64,000 nucleotides of DNA, taken from Flavobacterium sp. LC2016-12 (GTDB taxonomy: Bacteria; Bacteroidota; Bacteroidia; Flavobacteriales; Flavobacteriaceae). The stretch lies in assembly GCF_015351595.1 (NCBI RefSeq), contig NZ_JADKPT010000003.1, positions 248,001-312,000 of the forward strand, written 5' to 3'. The position numbers and the translations under genes were made by a program. Position 1 is the stretch's first letter. Each line of letters starts with the position of its first letter. Below, piece after piece: positions 52,877 to 64,000 of this stretch. Under the pieces are notes generated by a model that was not told the origin of the DNA, ran no database searches, and was given only the letters and a program-made list of their open reading frames with translations.

Positions 52877-55423
52877 ATGTCACTTTCCAAATACAACAAA
52901 AAAAGAGATTTTAAGCAAACACAAGAACCAAAAGGTAAAGTTGAAAAATCTGCCAATAAATTGATTTTTGTGGTGCAAAAACATGCCGCTTCGCATTTGC
53001 ATTATGACTTTAGACTTGAAATGGATGGTGTTCTTAAAAGTTGGGCAGTTCCAAAAGGACCTTCAATGGATCCTGATGTGAAGCGACTTGCTATGATGGT
53101 TGAAGATCATCCTTATAGTTATAAAGATTTTGAAGGAACTATTCCGGCTGGAAATTATGGTGCCGGAAATGTTATTGTTTGGGATAATGGAACTTATATT
53201 CCTTCAGAGAAAACAGCATCGCCTGAACGAACCTTGTTGGCAAATTTAAAAAAAGGGCGTTTGAGTTTTGTTCTGAATGGTAAAAAACTCAAAGGTGAAT
53301 TCTCTTTAGTTAAATTAAATGGAAAACAGGAAAATGCCTGGTTACTGATTAAAAAAAATGATAAATATGTGAATGATACCGACATATTAGAAAAAGATAA
53401 ATCAGTAATTTCCAAAAGGACTTTAGCTGATTTGGGTGAAAAAACAAAAGAAGTAGCAACTTCTAAAGAAGAAAATCAAACCCAACAAACAATTAAAAAG
53501 ACGGACAAACCTGCCGAATTCATTAAACCGATGTTGGCCACAATCACCGATAAGGCATTTGATGATGAAGACTGGATTTTCGAAAACAAATACGACGGTT
53601 ACAGAACTATCGCGGTCATTAACCCAAATGAAGATGTTGAATTATACAGCAGAAACGAAATTTCTTTCAATACCAATTTTAAACCTATTGCTGAAGAATT
53701 AAAAAAAATCGATCATGCAGTTGTATTAGATGGTGAGGTTGTAGTAGAAGATGAACAAGGCAAAGCCAGTTTTCAATTGCTTCAGAATTATCTTAAAACA
53801 GGTTTTGGAAATTTAAAATATTATGTATTCGATCTGTTGAATTTAGATGGAAACCTGGTTACTAAACTATCCACTCTGGATCGAAAAGAGCTTTTAAAAA
53901 TTCTATTCAACAAATATAAATTCAACAATATATTCTATGCCGATCATTCTGTTGGAGACGGAATAAAACAGTTTGAACTTGCTACAAAAAATAAAGAAGA
54001 AGGGATTGTGGCCAAAAAAGCTGACAGTATTTATTTATCAGACAAACGCTCACATGACTGGCTAAAAATTAAAACCGCCAATCAGGAGGAAGTAATTATT
54101 ATTGGAATAACTGAACCTAAGAATTCCAGAAAGCATTTTGGTGCTATTTTAATGGCACAGTATTACGGAAAAAGACTTCAGTATATTGGAAAATGCGGTA
54201 CCGGTTTTACAGAACAAATATTAGAAGAATTGTATACTAAATTACAGCCGTATTTTATTGCCGACTCTCCTTTAACTGAAAAAACAGGTCTTCGAGATAC
54301 AATTCAGTGGGTAAAACCAAAGTTGGTCTGCCAGATCAAATTCTCTGAATGGACAGCTGATAAACGCCTGAGACATCCCGTTTATCTCGGTTTGAGAATA
54401 GACAAAAAACCAAATGAAGTTTTTCTGCCAACTGATACTAAAAATAAAACGGAATTAAAAAAAGAAGAAAAAATGACTGATACTACTCAAAAAAACAAAA
54501 CAGAAAATGATTATGATTTGAAAGTGGGAAAAACGGTTCTTCATTTGACTAATCAAAATAAAATATATTTTCCGGATGACAAAATTACCAAAGGTGACAT
54601 TGTTCAGTATTACAATGAAGTAGCTGACTTTATACTTCCCTATCTTAAAAATCGTCCGCAATCGATGAACCGTTTCCCAAACGGAATAGCCGGTACCAGT
54701 TTTTACCAAAAAGAAGTGGACGTCGAAAAAAGTCCGTCCTGGCTGAAAACAAAAAAAATTTTCTCAGAATCGAATGATGCTGATGTAAACTATTTGATTT
54801 GCAACAATAAAGAAACCTTACTTTATATGGCAAATTTGGGTTGTATTGAAATCAATCCGTGGAATTCTACCATACAGCATATAGAAAATCCGGATTGGCT
54901 GGTTATCGATATAGATCCTGATAACCAAGATTTTACCGAAGTTGTAAAGACAGCTTTAACCGTAAAAGAAGTCATGGATGAACTGGAAACCGAATGTTTA
55001 TGCAAAACTTCAGGAGCTACCGGATTACATGTTTATATTCCGTTAGGGGCTCAATATGACTATGATTCGACTAAAATCTTAGCTGAATTAATAGCCAAAG
55101 AAGTACAATCACGCTTACCGGATACCACAACTTTGGAAAGAAGCATCAAAAAAAGAGATCGCAAAATTTATATCGACTTTTTACAAAACAGACATGGGCA
55201 AACATTGGCAGCACCGTATTCCGTTCGCCCTAAACCGGGTGCGACAGTTTCTACACCTTTAGAATGGAGTGAAGTAAACGATGATTTGCATCCGTCTCAA
55301 TTTACTATCAAAAATGTTTTGAGTCGTTTTGAGAAAAAAGGTGATTTATGGAAACCCGTTTTAGAAAAAGGAGCCAACGTCAAAAAAATCATCAAAAAAA
55401 TTGAAGATCGCCACAGAAGTTAA
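52877..55423 (+). CDS. ligD: Multifunctional NHEJ DNA ligase LigD
   Basis: This 848-residue protein has the PE-LIG-POL order. The N-terminal 3'-phosphoesterase is at about 10-165 ([26 protein letters not shown]). The ATP-dependent ligase is at about 220-540, with the adenylation Lys in [10 protein letters not shown] and the C-terminal OB fold. A Lys-rich linker leads to the primase-polymerase (about 560-845, [33 protein letters not shown]). It repairs double-strand breaks with Ku. Its stop overlaps the Ku stop by 4 bp in convergent orientation. Confidence 0.97.
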
Positions 55424-56202
55424 GATGATTTTTTCTTTTTAGTTTCCAGACTGGCTTTTAGCATTTCCATAAGATCATCTGTCTGTTTGTGGACCACTTT
55501 AAGTTCTGTCGGTTTTTTAGGCGCTTTTCCTTTGGCTTTCTTTTTAATGATATCTAAAAGTTTGGCGGTATATTCATCTTTAAAACTGCTGATATCAAAT
55601 TTCTCGGTTAGCTGATCAATTAATTTTTCAGCCATATCCATTTCTTTTGCACTTGTAGATTTAGCGACTGGCGGAAGTTTTAATTCGGATGGATCCCTAA
55701 CTTCCTGTTCAAAACGGATTCGGTTTAAAACAATTACATCTTTATAGGGTTTTAAAATCGCCAGGCTTTCTTTATTTCGCAGCACAAAACTCGTTACGCC
55801 CACTTTTCCGGACGCCGCCAGCGCATCACGAAGCAAAGCATAGGCTTTCATTGCGCCTTTATCTGGTTCCAAAAAATAAGGCTGTTCGTAGTAAATACTA
55901 TCAATTTCTTTTTCAGCGACAAAACTTTGAATATCAATCGTTTTGGTTTTTATCGCATCGGCAGCCTGAAAATCCTCTTCCTCCAGAATTACATATTTGT
56001 CTTCGATTTTATAACCTTTTATGATGTTTCCGTAAGCTACTTCTTTTCCTGTATTTTCATTAAATCTTTTAAATATAATGTTTGAAAGGTCTTTTGCATC
56101 GAGCATATCCAAATCAAGACTACTCTCCTGCACTGCCGAAAATAACTTAATCGGAATATTAATTAAACCAAAACTGATTGAACCTGTCCATATTGACCTC
56201 AT
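55420..56202 (-). CDS. ku: NHEJ DNA-end-binding protein Ku
   Basis: This 260-residue protein is a prokaryotic Ku: [24 protein letters not shown] at the N-terminus, then HATPase-unrelated core blocks [35 protein letters not shown] and the Lys-rich C-terminal tail that recruits LigD. It is the homodimeric ring that loads on DNA ends. Convergent with ligD (shared 4 bp at the stops). The cassette array starts 244 bp upstream of its start codon. Confidence 0.96.
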
Positions 56203-56373
56203 GATTTCTTTGTTTTAAATTGACCTTAAATTTAAGGCAGAGTCGTGATTTTCTATTATATGATATTGGGAATGTTTTATAAAATAATGCGTTGAAATAG
56301 GTTTTTACATTTTGGTTGTTGCGTAATTTATATAATTTGGATAAAAGAAATTGCTATATTTGGTAATGAATAA

Positions 56374-56446
56374 TGTGTGATTAAAACTACACATATCTAC
56401 CTTGATTTGGGTAGCTTTGTGTGATTATGTCACACATATAAATAAG
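56374..56446. promoter_or_regulatory. Candidate attI-like region at the array's left edge
   Basis: Upstream of the first cassette, TGTGTGATTA occurs at 56374-56383 and 56418-56427, followed by the inverted TCACACA at 56430-56436. An imperfect dyad joins CTACACATATCTACC (56387-56401) with GGTAGCTTTGTGTG. The sequence then reads AAATAAG before the crossover. No attC arm lies left of it. Direct and inverted repeats next to the first GTT are what an attI would show, but no integrase is adjacent. The gap 56203-56522 has no gene. Confidence 0.4.
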
Positions 56447-56522
56447 TTATGCGATATTTTGGCCAAAAAAGGAAGAATCGAATAATTCAATTAAACATAT
56501 TATACTTTATAAATTTTAAAAA

Positions 56523-56969
56523 ATGAGTGAAATAATAATTGGAAGTCTTTATCATCAAATTTTAGATAATCTTTTAAAAGAAATAGATTTGTCTATACTT
56601 CCTTTATATGGAGAAAATGAAATTTATAGAATGAATTCGGATAGATATGGTAAAGTAAAAATAAAATTAGATATTGAAAAAGATACTGAAAAAATAGAAT
56701 ATGCCCGTAGCATAAATAACAAATGTGTAAATCCCACGAATTTTTACACATATGAATGGGAAGTTAAGGAAGAAAAACTTCCGAAATATTTTGAAGAGTA
56801 TATTAAACCCGAAATATTACGATTTATTGAAATTTTGTCCACATTTAACAATGATAAAGCTATTGTTTTAAAATTTTCCGTTGTTGATGGAGAATATAAA
56901 AATTCAGAAAGACCCGCACATCATCTTGCTACAAAATATGCTTTAATTGAATTATTTAGACAAGTATAA
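56523..56969 (+). CDS. Cassette 1: unknown soluble protein
   Basis: This 148-residue protein has no signal peptide or membrane segment and no recognised family. It starts MSEIIIGSLYHQILDN. It has mixed charge, with a segment FYTYEWEVKEEKLPKYFEEYIKPE and a C-terminal PAHHLATKYALIELF. The start codon lies 76 bp after the cassette's GTTATGCGAT and the stop lies 9 bp before the site arm. It is the first gene of the array and could be expressed from a promoter left of it. Confidence 0.75.
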   Translation: MSEIIIGSLYHQILDNLLKEIDLSILPLYGENEIYRMNSDRYGKVKIKLDIEKDTEKIEYARSINNKCVNPTNFYTYEWEVKEEKLPKYFEEYIKPEILRFIEILSTFNNDKAIVLKFSVVDGEYKNSERPAHHLATKYALIELFRQV

Positions 56970-56978
56970 AAAAACATC

Positions 56979-57110
56979 GCATAACACACACTACAAGCAA
57001 TTTGGGCATTTGGCTTAATTGAAAGATTGGTTTGTATTTGAAAGATTTGGCAAATCCGAAAGATAACGCTGATTTAACCCCAAACTGCTTGTAGCGCGGG
57101 AACGTTGTAG
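56979..57110 (+). other. attC-like site 1
   Basis: Left outer arm GCATAAC at 56979-56985, inner stem CTACAAGCAATTTGGG at 56991-57006 with CCCAAACTGCTTGTAG at 57079-57094, right outer GTTGTAG at 57104-57110. Length 132 bp. Cassette 1 starts GTTATGCGATATTTT and ends AAAACATCGCATAAC: 14 of 15 complementary. Confidence 0.88.
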
Positions 57111-57139
57111 CCAATTTTAAAGAACCGAAGAAGAAATCA

Positions 57140-57844
57140 ATGACATTACAGAAAATTAAAAACGCATTTAACCAATATTTTAAAATTTGGTGGATTCCTA
57201 TTCTAAGCTACTTAATTCCCTTTGGAATATATTTAATTGGCGATGGTTTTAAAAGTGATGCAATAATAGATTTTTCTTTAGTAATATTTTTTATCAATAT
57301 TTTAGGCAATATAACTTCATCAATTGTTCAGATTGTTATTAAAAAATGGTTTTACTTAATTCCTCAAATCGGAATTTCTTTTTTCCTTTTTTTCTATGTC
57401 TCTATTTTTTTTACTTTTTCCCCTCCGGATTATTATGGAGCAAACAAAACTATACCGAAGGGCATTGAAATATACAAACCGATAGAAAACGAACCAACTA
57501 AAACGGAATTTGAAAAATATGATTTGATTTTATCATCAGGTGGGCAACCTGGAATTTACAACTATTATACAAACAAAAAACCAACTGAATCAGGTAATTT
57601 CTATATTAAAGCTTTCGAAATAACATCAAATGATAAATTATCGGAAGACAGAATGAAGATACGCTCAAAAGTTAAAGTAGAAAATTTTGAAACTACAATT
57701 TATTCAGGGGAGTTTACAATTTATGAAGGCCCTTGGGGAGATAAATATGGTGCAAGAATTGAATTATGGTTTGAACCTTCAAATGGGAATAAGGATTATA
57801 AAATTGCCGAAAGAAATTACATTGTTGAAGGTTGGATGAGATAA
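57140..57844 (+). CDS. Cassette 2: unknown membrane protein
   Basis: This 234-residue protein has three hydrophobic helices in its first 95 residues (WWIPILSYLIPFGIYLIG, AIIDFSLVIFFINILGNITSSIV, FYLIPQIGISFFLFFYVSIFF), then a soluble domain of about 130 residues with no recognised family. The soluble part has two strands-like blocks (KYDLILSSGGQPGIYNYYT, RIELWFEPSNGN). The start is 35 bp after the site and the stop 7 bp before the next arm, a tight fit to the cassette. Confidence 0.75.
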   Translation: MTLQKIKNAFNQYFKIWWIPILSYLIPFGIYLIGDGFKSDAIIDFSLVIFFINILGNITSSIVQIVIKKWFYLIPQIGISFFLFFYVSIFFTFSPPDYYGANKTIPKGIEIYKPIENEPTKTEFEKYDLILSSGGQPGIYNYYTNKKPTESGNFYIKAFEITSNDKLSEDRMKIRSKVKVENFETTIYSGEFTIYEGPWGDKYGARIELWFEPSNGNKDYKIAERNYIVEGWMR

Positions 57845-57853
57845 AAAAACTGG

Positions 57854-57985
57854 CTACAACACACGCTACAAGCAATTTGGGCATTTGGCTTAATGGGAAA
57901 ATTGGTTTGTATTTGGAAGATTTGGCAAATCCGAAAGATAATGCTGATTTACTCCCAAACTGCTTGTAGCGAGAGAACGTTATAT
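57854..57985 (+). other. attC-like site 2
   Basis: Left arm CTACAAC at 57854-57860, inner stem 57864-57881 with 57954-57971, right GTTATAT at 57979-57985. Length 132 bp. Cassette 2 starts GTTGTAGCCAATTTT and ends AAAACTGGCTACAAC: 14 of 15 complementary. Confidence 0.88.
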
Positions 57986-58179
57986 GATAGTTATCGCCGA
58001 AAATACGCTAACGAAAATCATAAGAAAATCACGCATTTAGTTGCGCATAAAAATTGAAAAGAGAAATTCTGAAATTCGAGTTTTTAAAAAGTTGATGTTT
58101 AATAGCGAAAACTTGAAAACAGGAATATGAAAAGCAGAAACTTGAAAATTGGGTGAAATTAGACCGAAATAGCAAAAAA

Positions 58180-58605
58180 ATGAAAACAATTAATTTAGAA
58201 TTTTCACTTAAAGCAATTTGGATTGTATTTATTCTAATTACTATTTATATTTTTAGTTGGATAACATTTCTCAATTTCACATTTGGAAATATTGTAACGA
58301 CTAAATACACAATATGGAATCTTATCATTCCAAATATTTTCACACTCGGAATATTAATTATTTATACAAAAGAAATATTAATGGGATATAATCCTAAATC
58401 CAAAAGCCGAAATTTAAAGTCATTTGTTTTCTTTACTATACTAATATTAATTTTGACTTTAATACAAATTCCACAATTCGAAATAATATTTGATGAAAAT
58501 AATTCAAAATATTGGCAAATAGTTTTGTCTCTAATAATTGTCTTAACTTCATATTTTGGAATTATTTTAAATAGAGTTTTAAAAATTAAAGGATTGAAAA
58601 ATTAG
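58180..58605 (+). CDS. Cassette 3: four-helix membrane protein (unknown)
   Basis: From ATG 58180 this is a 141-residue protein. An in-frame GTG at 58153 would add nine polar residues. Four hydrophobic helices are visible (AIWIVFILITIYIFSWITF, WNLIIPNIFTLGILIIYT, FVFFTILILILTLIQIP, WQIVLSLIIVLTSYFGIIL). No family is recognised. The 200 bp between the site and the start hold no other frame, so it may have a leader or its own promoter. Confidence 0.75.
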   Translation: MKTINLEFSLKAIWIVFILITIYIFSWITFLNFTFGNIVTTKYTIWNLIIPNIFTLGILIIYTKEILMGYNPKSKSRNLKSFVFFTILILILTLIQIPQFEIIFDENNSKYWQIVLSLIIVLTSYFGIILNRVLKIKGLKN

Positions 58606-58640
58606 CTGTTAAAATCGTACTTTCGACAAAAATAACCATC

Positions 58641-58772
58641 ATATAACAGCCGTTACACAAGATTTGGGCATTATGCTGAATTTAAAAATAGTCTTCTATT
58701 TGGAAGATTTGGCAAATCCGAAGAAAGGTCTTAATTTAACCCCAAACCTCGTGTAGCGTCAGAACGTTAGCA
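58641..58772 (+). other. attC-like site 3
   Basis: Left arm ATATAAC at 58641-58647 and right GTTAGCA at 58766-58772, 132 bp. The inner stem is a variant (TTACACAAGATTTGGG with CCCAAACCTCGTGTAG), with base changes on both arms that keep the pairing. Cassette 3 starts GTTATATGATAGTTAT and its end matches 15 of 16. Confidence 0.87.
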
Positions 58773-58828
58773 GTAATAAAACCAGAACTTGTGTCCTAAA
58801 AAGGCTTATTAAAAGTAAAATATTGATT

Positions 58829-59179
58829 ATGAAGGAAAATGAATTTGATTTCCTAAAAGGGAATAAAGGAAGTAATGGCGAAATCACTCCTTTCTTTATT
58901 AGAAAAATTGAATTAACTAATGAAGTAACCGGAAATGAAAAATTTCTACAATGCTTAAATTTATGTTTGACTCAAGATTTATCCAATAATGATTCTCAAA
59001 TTTCTATTGAATTCTATAACATCAATAATAAAGATATTCTTAACCTCGGTTTACCACAACTAACAGGACTTCAAATCGACAATATCGCGAATAGACAAAT
59101 GGAAAATTGCAATTTTCACGTTTTTGATTATGAAGACGGAGAATATGATTTCTATTGCGAAAAAATAAATATCAAATAA
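58829..59179 (+). CDS. Cassette 4: small unknown protein
   Basis: This 116-residue protein from ATG 58829 begins MKENEFDFLKGNKGSNGE. No hydrophobic segment. It has a C-terminal acidic part (CNFHVFDYEDGEYDFYCEKINIK). No family is recognised. It is soluble and in the cytoplasm. The cassette is the shortest complete one (554 bp). Confidence 0.72.
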   Translation: MKENEFDFLKGNKGSNGEITPFFIRKIELTNEVTGNEKFLQCLNLCLTQDLSNNDSQISIEFYNINNKDILNLGLPQLTGLQIDNIANRQMENCNFHVFDYEDGEYDFYCEKINIK

Positions 59180-59193
59180 TATCACTTTACTAC

Positions 59194-59326
59194 TGCTAAC
59201 AGGTGCTACAACGGATTTGGGCATTTGGCTTAATGGAAAGATAGTTTCGTATTTGGGATGTTTTGGCTAATCCGAAAATAGAGCTCAATTTAGTCCCAAA
59301 CCCGCTGTAGTACCAGAACGTTGGCG
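59194..59326 (+). other. attC-like site 4
   Basis: Left arm TGCTAAC at 59194-59200, right GTTGGCG at 59320-59326, 133 bp. The inner stem is GCTACAACGGATTTGGG with CCCAAACCCGCTGTAGT, with covarying positions compared with sites 1 and 2. Cassette 4 starts GTTAGCAGTAATAAA and its end matches 14 of 15. Confidence 0.87.
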
Positions 59327-59351
59327 GTTATTTCACAACGGAAGCAAGATA

Positions 59352-59810
59352 ATGGAAGAAAACGAAGATAAAAAGGAAATATATTTTAAACGTGTTTATG
59401 ACAATATCAAAAATATTGGTTATCATACAACCGCAATAATGGAAGAAGAAAACTTCACTCCTTTTGCGTACTCGACGGGCATATTTGAAAACTTTAAAAT
59501 ACCTGAATTATTCATTTCAGGACTTGGGCCAAATCTATCAGGTGAACTAATTAAAAACTATGTCGAAAAATTTAAATTTGGAAAAGTTCCTTTAAATGAA
59601 AGACTTGATAATTTAAACGAAAAGTTTCCAGTTTACTTAATAAAAGTTGGTAATGAAGACTTGACCGAATATACTCTAACTTCAATTAAATTTTATGAAA
59701 AGCGTAATTATGAATATTTGCAACTCGTTTTTCCAGATTTAAATGGAAATTTTCCGAATGAAAGTAACTATGATTACGACCAAAAAATAATTGGAGAATT
59801 CAACGCTTAA
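59352..59810 (+). CDS. Cassette 5: DUF4262 protein
   Basis: This 152-residue protein has the DUF4262 motifs IKNIGYHTTAIMEEENFTPFAYSTGIF (fragments), IPELFISGL and YLQLVFPDLNGNFPNE. The family is small, soluble and of unknown function. The start is 25 bp after the site and the stop 13 bp before the next arm. Confidence 0.85.
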   Translation: MEENEDKKEIYFKRVYDNIKNIGYHTTAIMEEENFTPFAYSTGIFENFKIPELFISGLGPNLSGELIKNYVEKFKFGKVPLNERLDNLNEKFPVYLIKVGNEDLTEYTLTSIKFYEKRNYEYLQLVFPDLNGNFPNESNYDYDQKIIGEFNA

Positions 59811-59823
59811 ATAAAGAAACAAC

Positions 59824-59955
59824 CGCCAACACACGCTACAAGCAATTTGGGCATTAGGCTTAATGGAAAAATTGGTTTGTATTTGGAAGATTTGGCAAAT
59901 CCGAAGAATGGGCTTAATTTAGTCCCAAACTGCGTGTAGCGGGGGAACGTTAGCG
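59824..59955 (+). other. attC-like site 5
   Basis: Left arm CGCCAAC at 59824-59830, right GTTAGCG at 59949-59955, 132 bp. Inner stem CGCTACAAGCAATTTGGG with CCCAAACTGCGTGTAGCG. Cassette 5 starts GTTGGCGGTTATTTC and ends GAAACAACCGCCAAC: 14 of 15 complementary. Confidence 0.88.
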
Positions 59956-60000
59956 GATATTTTGAGAAAAAATCGTAAATAAGAGATAATCAATTATATA

Positions 60001-60783
60001 ATGAAAATAAATATATTAATAAGGATTTCTATTTTTGCGTTTATGTTTATAAGTTTAATTGGTTGCAAACAACTAAATAATGAACCAAATCTGGAAAAAG
60101 CAATTTCCGATTTAATGGATAATTTTCCGCAATTCAGAAAAGGTAAATCAAAGCAAATAGAATATTATAAACTCGTTAGAAGTGTTACTTATGGAGAAAA
60201 TGAGTTTAAACTTCAACTCCGTTCTGAACCTGATAGTGTGAATGACCCACAAAAAATTTTAGTATTAATTAATTCACGGAATCAATGTTGTGCTATTCCT
60301 TTTTTATCAAATACATACAGAGATTATTGGGGTTTTAAAAACGAAAAAACAATTTCAAATGTAAAAAAGACTAAAACTAATTTCAATCAAGAATTTAGTC
60401 AGGCTTTGAATACATTAAAATTAAATGACACATTAGGAACAGGTCGTAAAGTAATTTCTGAAATGATGTTTTCTTTATTAAATTGTAAAATTGTAACAGA
60501 AAAAGATAGTACAGAAGTACTGAATGGTTATTCAAATGAAAATCACAACCTTGAAAATGAATTGTTTGACCCTTTAACAAGAATAAGATTTAGAAAAAAT
60601 TATCAAGAATTATCAAAGGATTGGCATAAATATGAATGTTGTCCAGATTATAATTCTTACTATGACACCAAAAATTATAGAATTTATCAAATTATAAATA
60701 ACGAAGGCTTCTATAATAAACCATTAAAATTAGTAATAAAATGTTATAGACAAAATGCTGTTTTTAACCATATCTCACTATAA
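60001..60783 (+). CDS. Cassette 6: unknown lipoprotein
   Basis: This 260-residue protein has a lipobox-like FISLIGC (Cys22) after a hydrophobic start, so it is an envelope lipoprotein. The mature part has no recognised family. A double-Cys block (RNQCCAIPF) and a second (KYECCPDYN) could form disulfides outside the cytoplasm. The start lies 51 bp after the site and the stop 15 bp before the next arm. Confidence 0.8.
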   Translation: MKINILIRISIFAFMFISLIGCKQLNNEPNLEKAISDLMDNFPQFRKGKSKQIEYYKLVRSVTYGENEFKLQLRSEPDSVNDPQKILVLINSRNQCCAIPFLSNTYRDYWGFKNEKTISNVKKTKTNFNQEFSQALNTLKLNDTLGTGRKVISEMMFSLLNCKIVTEKDSTEVLNGYSNENHNLENELFDPLTRIRFRKNYQELSKDWHKYECCPDYNSYYDTKNYRIYQIINNEGFYNKPLKLVIKCYRQNAVFNHISL

Positions 60784-60798
60784 AAATAAAAAAACATC

Positions 60799-60930
60799 CG
60801 CTAACACACGCTACAAGCAATTTGGGTTTTAGGCTTAATTTGAAGTTGGTTGTGTGTCAGAAATATTTGGCAAAACCGAAAGTTTAGGCTAATTTAGTCC
60901 CAAACTGCTTGTGGCGCGAGAACGTTGGCG
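60799..60930 (+). other. attC-like site 6
   Basis: Left arm CGCTAAC at 60799-60805, right GTTGGCG at 60924-60930, 132 bp. Inner stem CGCTACAAGCAATTTGGG with CCCAAACTGCTTGTGGCG. Cassette 6 starts GTTAGCGGATATTTT and its end matches 14 of 15. Confidence 0.88.
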
Positions 60931-60960
60931 GTAATTATAAAGACGATAAACAAGACAACA

Positions 60961-61254
60961 ATGAGTATTCTAAAGAACATTTTCGGGCTGAAGAAATCCA
61001 AAGAAAACGAATTCCCGGAAAGAATAATAATTACCAATGAGAATATTGACAGTTGGCCAAAGTTTGACCAGTTATATAAAAATGGAAAAATTAAGGAAGA
61101 CTCAAAAGGCAGACTTCGGTATTTACACGGTGCGCCTGTTGGTGAATTACTGTTGGTAAGAATTGACAAGAACGGTAAACCCCTTTATAAAGAATCTGCG
61201 TCCGAATGGTTTGACCCAGAAAGCAAAAAAGCAATAGAATTTATTTGGACTTAA
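60961..61254 (+). CDS. Cassette 7, first gene: small unknown protein
   Basis: From ATG 60961 this is a 97-residue protein. A TTG at 60925 also opens the frame but sits in the recombination site's GTT. It begins MSILKNIFGLKKSKENEF and includes GRLRYLHGAPVGELLLVRID. No family is recognised. It is soluble. It shares the cassette with the DUF4184 gene 18 bp downstream, so this is a two-gene cassette. Confidence 0.72.
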   Translation: MSILKNIFGLKKSKENEFPERIIITNENIDSWPKFDQLYKNGKIKEDSKGRLRYLHGAPVGELLLVRIDKNGKPLYKESASEWFDPESKKAIEFIWT

Positions 61255-61272
61255 ACTAACAAAATCGAGATA

Positions 61273-62016
61273 ATGCCATTTACATTTTCACATCCAGCAA
61301 TAATTTTACCATTGACATATTTGCCCCGCAAATGGTTCTCTTTGACTGGGCTTGTAATCGGAAGTTTGACACCTGACTTTGAATATTTTTTAAGAATGAG
61401 AGTTAAGAGTAATTACAGTCACACTTTAGAAGGTATAATTTGGTTTGACTTGCCATTAGGTTTAGTACTTGCTTTTACTTTTCACAATATAGTTCGCAAC
61501 AGTTTATTTGAAAACTTGCCGACTTTTTTAAAGTCAAAACTTTCCACATTTAAACAATTTAATTGGAATCGCTTCTTCTACAAAAATTGGTTGGTAGTGG
61601 TAATTTCAATTTTAATTGGTACAGCTTCACATCTATTTTGGGACAGCTTTACACATAACCACGGCTACTTCGTTGAAGCCATTCCGAGCTTGATAAACAC
61701 TATTGACATTTTTGGAGGACAAATCCCGATATTTAAAATTTTACAACATTCTAGTACATTAATTGGTGGTCTTATAATTGCTCTTTCATTTTATAAACTA
61801 CCTACAGAAAACAATGTAAATAAAAAAATTAACTTGAAATACTGGGCAATTTTTACAGGTCTAACTTTGACAATTATTTCAATCAGAATTTTAAATGGAC
61901 TTGAAATTAAACAATATGGAAATCTAATCGTTACAGCAATTTCGGCTGGAATAATTTCATTAATTTTAACTCCATTGGAAACAAGAATAACTGGCGGTAA
62001 CACTTGCTACAAGTGA
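61273..62016 (+). CDS. Cassette 7, second gene: DUF4184 membrane protein
   Basis: This 247-residue protein has five or more hydrophobic helices. It has the DUF4184 motifs: MPFTFSHPAIILPL, GSLTPDFEYF, HTLEGIIWFDLPLGL and HLFWDSFTHNHGYFVE. The conserved His and Asp residues suggest a metal site of a membrane hydrolase, function unknown. The coding sequence runs into the attC-like site: its last codons are part of the outer arm and the inner stem, ending TGA at 62014-62016. Confidence 0.88.
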   Translation: MPFTFSHPAIILPLTYLPRKWFSLTGLVIGSLTPDFEYFLRMRVKSNYSHTLEGIIWFDLPLGLVLAFTFHNIVRNSLFENLPTFLKSKLSTFKQFNWNRFFYKNWLVVVISILIGTASHLFWDSFTHNHGYFVEAIPSLINTIDIFGGQIPIFKILQHSSTLIGGLIIALSFYKLPTENNVNKKINLKYWAIFTGLTLTIISIRILNGLEIKQYGNLIVTAISAGIISLILTPLETRITGGNTCYK

Positions 62017-62127
62017 TTTGGGCAATTGGCTTAATGGAAAAATGGTTTTGTATTTGGGAATTTTGTGACAACCGAAAGATAAATCTTAACTTAGCCCCAA
62101 ACCACTTGTAGCAAGGGAACGTTGTGT
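61995..62127 (+). other. attC-like site 7 (with inverted block in the left arm)
   Basis: Left arm CGGTAAC at 61995-62001, right GTTGTGT at 62121-62127, 133 bp. Inner stem TTGCTACAAGTGATTTGGG with CCCAAACCACTTGTAGCAA. Cassette 7 starts GTTGGCGGTAATTAT. Its end should read TACCGCCAAC but reads TGGCGGTAAC, so six bases are inverted while the flanks still fit. See findings. Confidence 0.82.
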
Positions 62128-62156
62128 GCTATTTATCAGAAAACAGAGAAATAAAA

Positions 62157-62729
62157 ATGAAATTTATGTTTCCAATAAAGTTCGAAAAACAAAGACGGTT
62201 AATATTATTATTTTCACTTTTAATTATGACTGCTTGTCAGAAAGTAAAAAATGAGGATTCTCAAAGAATTATCTCTGATAATTATTCAATAATTGTCCCC
62301 TCAGATTTTGAAAGAACAAACAACCTTAACGGATTATCAAAAGTCCAATTTCAAATTAAAGAAGAAGATTTATATTTTATTGTATTAGAAGAACCTAAAA
62401 AAGGATTTGAAAATGCAATTAGATTAAAATTACACAATTCAACTGCAGATTTAACCGGATATTTTAAAGTAGTTACAAATCATTTTAAAGAAATAACTAA
62501 AAATTTTGAGTTGAATGACTTTGGAAGAACAAAGATAGATTACTGTAATGCCTATCTTTTTTCAATGTCAGGAATAGAACTTGAAAACAATAAAAGTGTG
62601 TTTTATAGATTTGGAATAATTGAAGATAATGAGAACTATTATCAAATAATGTCTTGGACAAACATAAAGAACAAACAAAAACTAATAGGAAAAATGGATA
62701 AAATAATTCATTCATTTGAACTGAGGTAA
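62157..62729 (+). CDS. Cassette 8: unknown lipoprotein
   Basis: From ATG 62157 this is a 190-residue protein with a lipobox LIMTAC after a hydrophobic start (RRLILLFSLLIMTAC). The longer frame begins inside the recombination site's right arm and is unlikely. The mature part has no recognised family. It is likely envelope-anchored. Confidence 0.78.
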   Translation: MKFMFPIKFEKQRRLILLFSLLIMTACQKVKNEDSQRIISDNYSIIVPSDFERTNNLNGLSKVQFQIKEEDLYFIVLEEPKKGFENAIRLKLHNSTADLTGYFKVVTNHFKEITKNFELNDFGRTKIDYCNAYLFSMSGIELENNKSVFYRFGIIEDNENYYQIMSWTNIKNKQKLIGKMDKIIHSFELR

Positions 62730-62740
62730 AAATAAACAGC

Positions 62741-62873
62741 ACAAAACAGCCACTACAACGGATTTAGGCATTTGGCTTAATGGAAAAATGATTTTGTATT
62801 TGGGAAGATTTGGCAAATCCGAAAACAAGGCTTAATTTAGTCCCAAACCCGCTGTAGTGCCAAAACGTTGTGC
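62741..62873 (+). other. attC-like site 8
   Basis: Left arm ACAAAAC at 62741-62747, right GTTGTGC at 62867-62873, 133 bp. Inner stem ACTACAACGGATTTAGG with CCCAAACCCGCTGTAGT, a covarying variant. Cassette 8 starts GTTGTGTGCTATTTAT and its end matches 14 of 16. Confidence 0.85.
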
Positions 62874-62901
62874 GTCATTTTAACGGAAAAACGAAATATC
62901 T

Positions 62902-63438
62902 TTGGAAAAAAAAATATTTGAAACTGAAAGAATTCCATTTAAAGAAAGATGCAAAAAAGATATTAAAATTAAATTTTTTGTCTTTTTAATTTTTGCATCA
63001 ATCCCAATATTTTCTTGTAGTGAATTTAATATTATTTCAATATTATTTATTCTCTTTTTTTTATTTGTCTTCTTATTTATAACTTATGATGAATCAAAAG
63101 AATTTGTATATAAAATTGAATTTGAAAATGAAAACATAAATATTTTTGGTAGCAATTTTGATAATGATTGGATTGAAAAATTTGAAATTAAGAAAGTAAA
63201 CATCCAAATTAGAAATCGTGTATCAAAAACGGGAAGTGTAATTGGATATAAGATAGTATTCAAAAGCGCTAAGAAAAAAATCACATTAAACAGATTATAT
63301 AACTGGAATAATTTTGCTTTACACCAGATATTCACAGAGTTTAAAAAATTGAAAGGGGAAAAAATAATAATTGATGAGAAGTCATTAATCGATGGAATAA
63401 AGAAAAAAGCAGAAGATGAAGGCGAGTGGAAATACTAA
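62902..63438 (+). CDS. Cassette 9: unknown two-helix membrane protein
   Basis: This 178-residue protein starts at TTG 62902, because no ATG occurs early in the frame. Two hydrophobic helices lie at about 24-40 and 43-62. The soluble part (about 65-178) has PH-domain-like beta character but no confident family. The start choice is uncertain. It ends 12 bp before the next arm. Confidence 0.68.
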   Translation: MEKKIFETERIPFKERCKKDIKIKFFVFLIFASIPIFSCSEFNIISILFILFFLFVFLFITYDESKEFVYKIEFENENINIFGSNFDNDWIEKFEIKKVNIQIRNRVSKTGSVIGYKIVFKSAKKKITLNRLYNWNNFALHQIFTEFKKLKGEKIIIDEKSLIDGIKKKAEDEGEWKY

Positions 63439-63450
63439 CCAAAAAACGAC

Positions 63451-63582
63451 GCACAACGCACGCTACAAGCAATTTGGGTATTAGGCTTAATTTGAAGTTG
63501 GTTTTGTATTTGGAAGATTTGGCAAATCCGAAGAATGGCCTTAATTTACTCCCAAACTGCTTGTAGCGCGAGAACGTTGTGC
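63451..63582 (+). other. attC-like site 9
   Basis: Left arm GCACAAC at 63451-63457, right GTTGTGC at 63576-63582, 132 bp. Inner stem CGCTACAAGCAATTTGGG with CCCAAACTGCTTGTAGCG. Cassette 9 starts GTTGTGCGTCATTTT and its end matches 14 of 15. Confidence 0.88.
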
Positions 63583-63610
63583 AACATTATAAAAAGCCGA
63601 ATAGAACTCT

Positions 63611-64000
63611 ATGAAAAGCATTCTACCATTTCTTATTATTTTGATTTTTACTTCTTGTAGAAAAGAAAATACTGTTAGCAAAGAAATTGTAATCCCGAAA
63701 AGCAATAACAGTGTAGTAAAGAAGGACAATTTGAAAGTTATTGATACAACTATAATTTTGTCAAACATTCCAAACTCAAATGACAATTGTATTAGCATAA
63801 CCGAATTAGAGGTCGAAAAATATCTCTATAAATATTTTAAATCTCAAGGAGCGCTCCCAAGAAATGAAATTAAAGATTATTCAAATGAGAATATGTGTAT
63901 TGATTATGACACAATTTATAATCTAAAATCAAACAAAACTTGTAGTGCAATTGTAAGATATTGGTTAAAGCCTGTAGATTTAAACGGTACTTGTGTTCAA
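63611..64000 (+). CDS. Cassette 10: unknown lipoprotein (cut by right edge)
   Basis: Open from ATG 63611 to the last base, 130 codons without stop. It begins MKSILPFLIILIFTSC, a lipobox (FTSC, Cys16), followed by a polar region with several Cys residues (DNCISITE, NMCIDYD, KTCSAIV, NGTCVQ). No family is recognised. It is the last visible cassette. Confidence 0.75.
   Translation, partial: MKSILPFLIILIFTSCRKENTVSKEIVIPKSNNSVVKKDNLKVIDTTIILSNIPNSNDNCISITELEVEKYLYKYFKSQGALPRNEIKDYSNENMCIDYDTIYNLKSNKTCSAIVRYWLKPVDLNGTCVQ

Follow-up and report, generated by a model that had tools for sequence, protein, structure and literature searches.

A probable integron-type cassette array in Flavobacterium and its association with tyrosine recombinases lacking the additional domain of IntI

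The last part of a 64,000-nucleotide stretch of the genome of Flavobacterium sp. LC2016-12 (on contig C3; henceforth the window) consists of similar palindromic sites that alternate with genes, which raises the question of whether they form an integron and, if so, which enzyme might move its cassettes. The nine sites described in a first-pass annotation, all in the same orientation and lying between ten plus-strand units, are present, and their length is 124-125 nt if the left-box AAC and the GTT of the following unit are taken as limits, or approximately 132-133 nt, as annotated, when the left box is added. The array covers approximately positions 56446-64000 and starts with an attI-like leader, absent from the earlier annotation, that precedes the first of at least ten cassettes (Table 1). 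With a covariance model it could be followed past the end of the window to approximately C3:318100, and a search of Rfam over 20 kb around the array (C3:296001-316000) matched nothing. The annotated rule that the head of each unit is the reverse complement of its tail holds for units 1-6 and 9 (14 of 15 positions) and for unit 8 (13 of 15), but fails for unit 7 (10 of 15); in units 1-6 and 9 the sole mismatch between the first and last 15 nt is located at position 11. When heads and tails of the window units were permuted, the observed score was reached in 0 of 20,000 tries, with an input in which the first head was one base off, so that the observed score was lowered. Units 7 and 8 deviate from the rule of complementary ends, and unit 7, whose ends are non-complementary, probably represents two fused cassettes. 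The left neighbour of the array is ku (PF02735), as annotated. With regard to ku as the empty site, no ku match reaches into attI among the matches listed for 121 genus genomes; in two relatives ku adjoins a gene that is located approximately 23 kb away in the present genome, so that other genes have moved as well.

Table 1. Features of the cassette array and its leader in the window.
Feature	Position	Strand	Remarks
TATATTTG, putative promoter motif 5' of attI-like leader	56355..56362	+	sequence; taken here to be a Bacteroidota-type -7 promoter motif
attI-like leader	56388..56446	+	last base is G of the G/TT crossover; inverted repeat GTGTGA..TCACAC
Cassette 1, CDS 56523-56969 (148 aa)	56447..57104	+	ends 14/15; no Pfam match of product
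attC-like site 1 (AAC..GTT)	56983..57106	+	
Cassette 2, CDS 57140-57844	57105..57979	+	ends 14/15
attC-like site 2	57858..57981	+	
Cassette 3, CDS 58180-58605	57980..58766	+	ends 14/15; G524 match
attC-like site 3	58645..58768	+	
Cassette 4, CDS 58829-59179	58767..59320	+	ends 14/15; whole copy in G888
attC-like site 4	59198..59322	+	
Cassette 5, CDS 59352-59810, DUF4262 (Pfam)	59321..59949	+	ends 14/15; G864 copy
attC-like site 5	59828..59951	+	
Cassette 6, CDS 60001-60783, lipoprotein-like start (by eye)	59950..60924	+	ends 14/15
attC-like site 6	60803..60926	+	
Unit 7, two genes: 60961-61254; 61273-62016, DUF4184 (Pfam)	60925..62121	+	ends 10/15
attC-like site 7	61999..62123	+	
Cassette 8, CDS 62157-62729	62122..62867	+	ends 13/15
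attC-like site 8	62745..62869	+	
Cassette 9, CDS 62902-63438	62868..63576	+	ends 14/15; G817, G865, G536 matches
attC-like site 9	63455..63578	+	
Cassette 10, CDS from 63611, incomplete at window end	63577..64000	+	

The window contains no tyrosine recombinase, as had been noted, and the only three matches to PF00589 in the genome are found on contigs C7, C12 and C16. The array is nevertheless not without a candidate integrase: the one at C7:79044-80087 (347 aa) heads another array. As it has no additional domain, this enzyme is not of the anticipated IntI type. It scores 202 bits against TIGR02249, below the cut-off of 265 and with positions 178-237 unmatched, and 228 bits against NF040815 of NCBIfam, above the cut-off of 220. 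The family to which it belongs lacks the 41-residue additional domain (I2) of IntI and carries an N-terminal extension of approximately 60 residues. The spacing between the motifs GKGxKxR and HxLRH is 59 residues in 73 of 76 members and 100 residues in 16 of 19 true IntI loci, the remaining three sequences in either set having no motif match; this count used 76 of 80 family loci, as L076, L079 and L085 were skipped and L052 has a stop. In a tree of 16 family members, 18 of 20 IntI loci (L123 and L126 had no usable ORF) and 10 of 12 other recombinases (L019 and L029 (partial) being omitted), IntI (18 rows, 100/100) and the I2-less family (16 rows, 98/97) form separate clades; note that in an AU test a single clade uniting the two was not rejected (p 0.159). 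The profile of the I2-less integrase matches in 63 of 295 Bacteroidia genomes at E <= 1e-100, and two Chryseobacterium plasmids carry the integrase at 68% together with a leader. The phage records searched at E <= 1e-60 contained none.

Cassette arrays are closely linked to this family. The regions downstream of 80 integrase loci (361,831 bp) contain 153 head-tail pairs of cassette ends, as opposed to a single one in 703,622 bp upstream, and for a further 20 remoter integrases the numbers are 23 pairs in 78,356 bp downstream versus 1 in 178,633 bp upstream. The 153 pairs comprise only 140 heads and 142 tails, because with duplicated cassettes some heads fit several tails. As the head-tail detector is strand-symmetric, the direction of the arrays rests on the site profile, which gave 66 matches from 19 of the 80 loci, 64 of them downstream and on the integrase strand. 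Among the 36 loci having at least 5 kb downstream, four integrases had no detected cassettes; in the remoter set this was the case for 12 of 20, eleven of them with less than 2.4 kb downstream. Seven of 20 other I2-less recombinases from the same bacterial family head similar arrays. Turning to the leader, 31 nt at its end in the window (56419-56449) recur unchanged in the leader that follows the C7 integrase, which fits an action of this enzyme in trans without proving it. In relatives, TA-N2-7-AGTTR is found 75-140 nt 3' of the integrase stop in 70 of 73 cases (versus 8.5% of shuffles), and TAnnTTTG within 75 nt 3' of the stop in 52 of 78 leaders (versus 4.2% of shuffles). As in integrons, an attI, here by predicted function, is thus adjacent to the integrase with a G/TT crossover, and the cassettes start directly at the leader.

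These data bear on the alternative that the host Xer recombinases move the cassettes, comparable to Xer-dependent modules and phages, with the C7 protein as a bystander. In the case of CTXphi, single-stranded substrates are reported to be able to hijack XerCD (PMC4792948). The two further recombinases of the genome (C12, 298 aa, and C16, 297 aa) are presumed to be Xer by their size, and the C7 integrase itself resembles XerA, XerC and XerD in its best profile matches and XerA in its structure match (PDB 5hxy), with similar matches of its structure model (pLDDT 79.6, pTM 0.51) to XerA and to IntI. The substrates of Xer enzymes are short double-stranded dif sites, whereas the I2-less family heads cassette arrays. 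As arrays begin behind this family in many genera and the leader 3' of the integrase stop codon ends in the crossover, we consider this alternative very improbable. The C12 and C16 recombinases could also take part.

The structure of the cassette ends was analyzed in the relatives' pairs. The ends of a cassette lie approximately 800 bp apart and are complementary to each other in a box of 15 nt, except for an A.C mismatch fixed at position 11: this head position is an A in 153 of 153 pairs, facing C in 129, and pairing resumes at positions 12-15 (137, 127, 129 and 124 of 153) and drops to 23 at position 16. Counting one head per tail, the A is found in 142 of 142 and the opposite C in 118, with pairing at 12-15 in 127, 119, 121 and 117 of 142 and at position 16 in 19. 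According to PMC2727003, the R boxes of integrons pair over 9-11 consecutive nt. The I2-less arrays do not conform to this: nine or ten nt pair, 151 of the 153 pairs have a break at position 11, pairing is found again over 12-15, and some R boxes are a variant with a single-base bulge. The sequence GTTRRRY was dropped as a discriminator; it occurs in 8 of 153 heads here, yet true IntI arrays have it in no more than 13 of 62.

In the inner (L) stem, 110 of 135 sites carry a second A.C, or G.T in the bottom strand, at position 15. Among 24 sites of the present genome this stem shows covariation, with 58 doubly changed cells versus 23.4 ± 3.5 in shuffles (0 of 500 reached the observed value); pair types are no more numerous than in the shuffles (21 vs 19.5). 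As evidenced by the folding analysis, the bottom strand of reconstituted sites is the more stable one in 138 of 145 cases, compared to 40 of 140 controls, while in the window alone only 6 of 9 sites fold better as bottom strand. The folding and the inner-stem A.C count were limited to sites of at least 100 nt, and the strand-stability count to units of up to 2500 bp. These arrays consist of cassettes whose ends are complementary and whose attC sites are palindromic.

The box pattern also addresses a second alternative, namely that the window represents the remnant of a classical integron, a CALIN of ordinary IntI-type attC sites with intI lost or located elsewhere. The overall geometry and the G/TT crossover are the same as in IntI arrays, and true IntI does occur in the phylum, our scan having found it in 84 of 296 genomes. 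However, true IntI arrays analyzed with the same script have position 11 paired in 48 of 62 cases and 18-25 of 62 thereafter, that is, neither the mismatch at 11 nor the re-pairing at 12-15; IntI above cut-off is absent from the present genome and, among the matches listed, from 18 genus genomes; and the leader of the window matches that of the I2-less integrase. A classical remnant thus appears very improbable.

Cassettes of this type are found in different genomes. One of 703 bp is shared at 99.6% identity between F. saccharophilum, where it is located at attI, and the C7 array, with both borders at GTT, in spite of only 84% identity between the integrases of the two genomes. Cassette 4 is present as a whole in G888 (95%, both borders GTT) and cassette 5 as a 92% copy in G864, where the contig stops inside the site, in both cases directly behind an attI-like leader. 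A 94.5% match to cassette 3 in G524 runs from 58171 to 58770 and ends 4 nt beyond the crossover G, and cassette 9 has internal matches of 83-93% in G817, G865 and G536. Out of 11 pairs of shared cassettes inspected, some of them within a genome, eight have their end at the GTT of the following site, two run off the contig, and one (L051) does not fit; cassettes are thus exchanged between genomes at the crossover point. The first-pass annotation had named a plain dispersed intergenic family, together with a lack of cassette-level variation, as speaking against its own reading. Such an attC look-alike, a dispersed intergenic palindromic repeat resembling REP or MITE elements, is hardly credible: the sites of one genome are alike in sequence and two stand singly outside arrays, but 41 of 43 genome-wide site matches (E < 1e-3) are clustered, complementarity with a fixed mismatch links the distant ends of one cassette, homology between genomes stops at G/TT, cassettes of relatives stand downstream of the integrase, and cassettes recur individually in other genomes. 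Of the original integron reading, the cassette/attC geometry and the mobility of the cassettes hold, but the box pattern is unlike that of true IntI arrays and the candidate integrase is not of IntI type.

We conclude that the window very probably holds an integron-type array and that the I2-less recombinase of C7 probably excises its cassettes and captures them in the form of folded single-stranded hairpins. An excised circle would reunite the cassette's own head and tail into one site, and the bottom strand of this site would fold into a hairpin with two recombinase boxes flanking a bulge. In both boxes the A.C of the top strand would become a G.T wobble that marks the bottom strand as the substrate, and genes would therefore enter in the direction in which they are expressed. 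Joining of the hairpin to double-stranded attI by the recombinase would result in capture, and joining to another site in excision and reshuffling. A putative leader promoter would express the first cassettes, and the window array, which lacks an integrase, would depend on one supplied in trans.

Tyrosine recombinases and strand-biased circles are also reported for strand-biased circularizing integrative elements (SE; PMC9345347). With IntI integrons the present system shares an attI beside the gene of a tyrosine recombinase, uniformly oriented cassettes in tandem, the R''-L''-L'-R' layout, the G/TT crossover, cassette-specific R boxes, the better folding of the bottom strand and the occurrence of integrase-free arrays. 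It differs in the shorter motif spacing and the N-terminal extension of its integrase, in the 15-nt R box with its fixed A.C at position 11, in the co-directional arrangement of integrase and array and in the promoter motif between integrase stop and attI; the A.C in the L stem is a further feature, with figures from the I2-less arrays alone.

Integrons are defined by IntI together with its additional domain, and our literature search found no report of an integron-type system run by I2-less integrases. The additional domain is reported to be necessary (PMC9668308), so that an I2-less enzyme carrying out the integron reaction would go against current expectation. According to PMC9024848, IntegronFinder surveys found almost no integrons in Bacteroidetes, and an earlier study only In0, followed by one complete integron in Salinibacter. 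Among the 85 genomes listed with a true IntI match in our scan, only 1 is assigned to the class of the present genome. We consider it likely that Bacteroidota possess a second great family of integrons without the I2 domain, in which a widespread integrase clade recognizes the folded ends of cassettes through a wobble code: fixed places of the two boxes are occupied by A.C in the top strand and by G.T in the bottom strand, so that strand choice lies in base pairs rather than in extrahelical bases; this would be an integron invented independently or, alternatively, a state preceding I2. If this is correct, the class Bacteroidia has had integrons all along, and with them a second code for strand choice, a natural test of how a tyrosine recombinase lacking I2 comes to use folded single strands as substrates, and a large reservoir of cassette genes of unknown nature.

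Nine attC-like sites in one orientation and ten plus-strand units run from ku to the window end, as the first-pass annotation had described them, with ku to their left on the minus strand. Together with ligD on the plus strand, ku forms a bacterial end-joining pair (window 52877-56202) directly left of the array; among the listed genus relatives, no ku match reaches into attI. The integron-type reading was extended to the full genome (5.0 Mb in 38 contigs, with the window at C3:248001-312000) with a covariance model built from 24 of its own sites. It yielded 46 matches with E <= 0.1, and for 43 of these E is below 1e-3; two of the three weaker ones are antisense echoes of stronger matches. By position the 43 fall into two arrays on C3, two ranges on C7, one array on C4 and two single sites (table). 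Pfam matches over cut-off were found in just two of the ten window proteins scanned, and for the tenth unit, of whose gene the beginning was scanned, Pfam gave no hit.

Features of the array system in the genome of the window (window coordinates for ku and window leader; contig coordinates otherwise)
Feature	Position	Strand	Remark
ku	55423-56202	minus	PF02735
Window leader	56388-56446		31 nt at its end identical to the C7 leader
Window array	C3, continuing to ~318100		covariance matches
Second C3 array	88.7-93.7k		covariance matches; preceded by a leader
C7 integrase	C7:79044-80087		347 aa; directly ahead of the C7 array, same direction
C7 arrays	80.7-89.0k and 127-142k		covariance matches
C4 array	254-256k		covariance matches; a decayed leader lies on C4
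Single sites outside arrays	C7:11767, C6:135965		covariance matches
Cassette 5 protein			DUF4262, over Pfam cut-off
Unit 7, protein of second gene			DUF4184, also Zn_dep_PLPC, over cut-off

Measured from the left-box AAC as far as the GTT that opens the following unit, each site in the window is 124-125 nt long. The predicted stem pairs number 16, and ten of them show double changes. Across the 24 own-genome sites 58 cells are doubly changed, versus 23.4 ± 3.5 in shuffled columns, the observed number being reached in 0 of 500 shuffles; the count of pair types in the stem is not above that of shuffled columns. The head of a unit and its reverse-complemented tail agree at 14 of 15 nt in units 1-6 and 9, with position 11 as the sole failure, and at 13 of 15 in unit 8. 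Unit 7 (window 60925-62121) contains two genes and has unpaired ends (10/15); it may represent two cassettes that became fused when the site between them was lost. Because the two ends of a unit are separated by hundreds of bases of chromosome, their pairing is sensible only in a circle or a folded strand, and we infer that the unit would exist in such a form, where head and tail meet.

The first-pass annotation had no integrase in view. The search beyond the window supplied a candidate on C7, one of only three tyrosine recombinases (PF00589) in the whole genome, but it is not of the IntI type. Its nearest named relatives are from Flavobacterium. The protein passes NCBIfam NF040815 (228 bits, cut-off 220), titled 'site-specific tyrosine recombinase/integron integrase', and falls below the cut-off of TIGR02249 (202 vs 265), in whose alignment positions 178-237 are missing; against IntI4 (2a3v), 57 residues face 15. 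Two catalytic motifs are spaced 59 residues apart in 73 of 76 members of the first integrase family, the relatives of the C7 protein, whereas 16 of 19 true IntI loci have 100 residues between them; the other three in either set have no motif match. These distances and alignment gaps indicate that the first family lacks the additional domain (I2, 41 residues), which passages of PMC9668308 give as the defining feature of IntI. In a 46-row tree with long branches IntI forms one clade (100/100) and the first family another (98/97), with other Bacteroidota recombinases drawn between them at weak support. Note that the AU test did not reject a single clade of both (p 0.159), and an independent origin from IntI is thus not demonstrated. 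Some of these proteins already carry the database name 'integron integrase', which hints at their link to integrons.

Linkage of integrase and array was examined at 80 integrase loci from a scan of titled genome records. The own-genome site profile gave 66 matches in 19 of them, 64 downstream and on the integrase strand. A geometry detector, which seeks an 8-nt GTT head and an AAC tail that complement each other, together with a hairpin extending to the following GTT, and whose counts come from one script with fixed thresholds, scored 153 head-tail pairs over 361,831 bp of downstream sequence (39 of 80 loci) and a single pair in 703,622 bp upstream of the same loci. Contigs often break downstream, where more than 1 kb is available in 54 of the 80; among loci offering 5 kb or more, 32 of 36 have cassettes. 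For 20 remoter integrases chosen from a class-wide search, the yield was 23 pairs in 78,356 bp downstream (8/20 loci) versus 1 in 178,633 bp upstream, with short or odd sites at a few loci.

The integrase stop codon is followed by a conserved, attI-like stretch of ~100 nt with inverted repeats. TAnnTTTG occurs in 52 of 78 leaders (4.2% in shuffles), and among leaders no shorter than 120 nt, 70 of 73 end in TA-N2-7-AG/TTR at the first cassette head, versus 8.5% of shuffles. In 51 of 74 leaders a last inverted repeat (5 bp or longer) could be recognized, and its arm recurs upstream within the same leader in 44 of these 51 (mean of 9 in a control with arms swapped from leader to leader). The arms differ between species yet recur within one leader (loci L031-L110 and window 56388-56446), as if they were read by a species-specific part of a protein. 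Owing to the match between its leader and that of C7, the window array is read as being served in trans by the C7 integrase.

While matching at positions 1-8 is built into the detector, the 153 pairs reveal a pattern beyond it. Head and tail pair at position 9 in 144 cases, at position 10 in 93 and at position 11 in 2; pairing resumes at positions 12, 13, 14 and 15 (137, 127, 129 and 124) and stands at 23 at position 16. Head position 11 is an A in all 153, with a C opposite in 129, and allowing each tail a single head (142 pairs) leaves the pattern unchanged. When heads are set against tails of other cassettes from the same locus, the matching fraction is 0.3-0.7 over positions 4-10 and 0.4-0.5 over 12-15. 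In the inner stem, position 15 after AAC is an A.C in 110 of 135 sites. For comparison, the detector was run on 20 true IntI loci with the permitted site lengths widened slightly, and it recovered 62 cassettes in 17 of them; these pair at positions 9, 10 and 11 in 58, 50 and 48 cases, but at positions 12-18 in 18-25. R-box mismatch followed by re-pairing is therefore distinctive of the first integrase family. A top-strand A.C corresponds to a G.T wobble on the bottom strand, and of 145 sites joined to their own head, 138 fold more stably as bottom strand, by a mean of 4.0 kcal/mol (40/140 for equal-length stretches 900 nt before the site; 6/9 for window sites alone). Whereas in classical attC the strand is chosen through extrahelical bases, according to passages of PMC2727003, we propose from sequence and folding that in these sites the paired wobble would select the bottom strand.

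Genome comparisons, with one genome per species, bear on cassette mobility. As evidenced by blast between arrays, a 703-bp cassette is 99.6% identical between F. saccharophilum and the C7 array, the integrases of the two genomes being 84% identical. The homology extends from the G of GTT to the next GTTA, and the left flank is attI in F. saccharophilum, where the cassette comes first, and a site in the other genome. Another cassette, shared at 94% identity, follows the leader as the first of its array in F. denitrificans and has a different place in Paenimyroides. Among 11 inspected pairs, some of them within-genome copies, 8 end in GTT, 2 run off the contig and 1 (locus L051) is a misfit. Window DNA matched 74 of 249 genus genomes at E <= 1e-40, in many of them through sites only, and at 26 inspected loci the longest match lay within one window unit and its adjoining site, or within a lone site. 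Copies of cassettes 4 (95%) and 5 (92%) lie directly behind an attI-like leader in genomes G888 and G864, respectively. Matches of 68-80%, which may be ordinary homologues, were left uncounted as cassettes. At loci L216 and L226 gene and tail box match window cassettes 6 and 2 and the inner site differs, as if inner stems had been replaced within a genome. The longest cassette ORF in relatives runs with the array in 107 cases and against it in 20, with none of 60 aa in 18.

Within the class, the first-family integrase profile reaches E <= 1e-100 in 63 of 295 genomes. In the phylum, 84 of 296 genomes have true IntI over cut-off, and among 85 genomes listed with an IntI match only one is marked as belonging to the window's class. 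The integrase also occurs in records titled as Rhizobium and Bifidobacterium breve MAGs (L042, L073), probably misbinned Bacteroidota contigs. Searches of open-access literature turned up no title or abstract opening that describes integron-type arrays associated with I2-less integrases from Bacteroidota. A third set of 20 further recombinases, picked from the best TIGR02249 hits in genomes of the same bacterial family, is I2-less throughout (58-59 inter-motif residues in 20/20). It yielded 39 downstream pairs, spread over 7 of the 20 loci, and 2 upstream pairs at one other locus; the system is thus wider than the first integrase family. The I2-less recombinases at L194-L196, L198 and L202-L204, from the same bacterial family and outside the first integrase clade, stand at the head of arrays whose boxes show the same A.C. 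Recombinases about 46-52% identical over part of the C7 integrase length are found on plasmids of Klebsiella, Aeromonas, Parabacteroides and Rufibacter. Two Chryseobacterium plasmids (L213, L214) encode a 68% identical integrase together with an attI-like leader, and the system can thus sit on plasmids.
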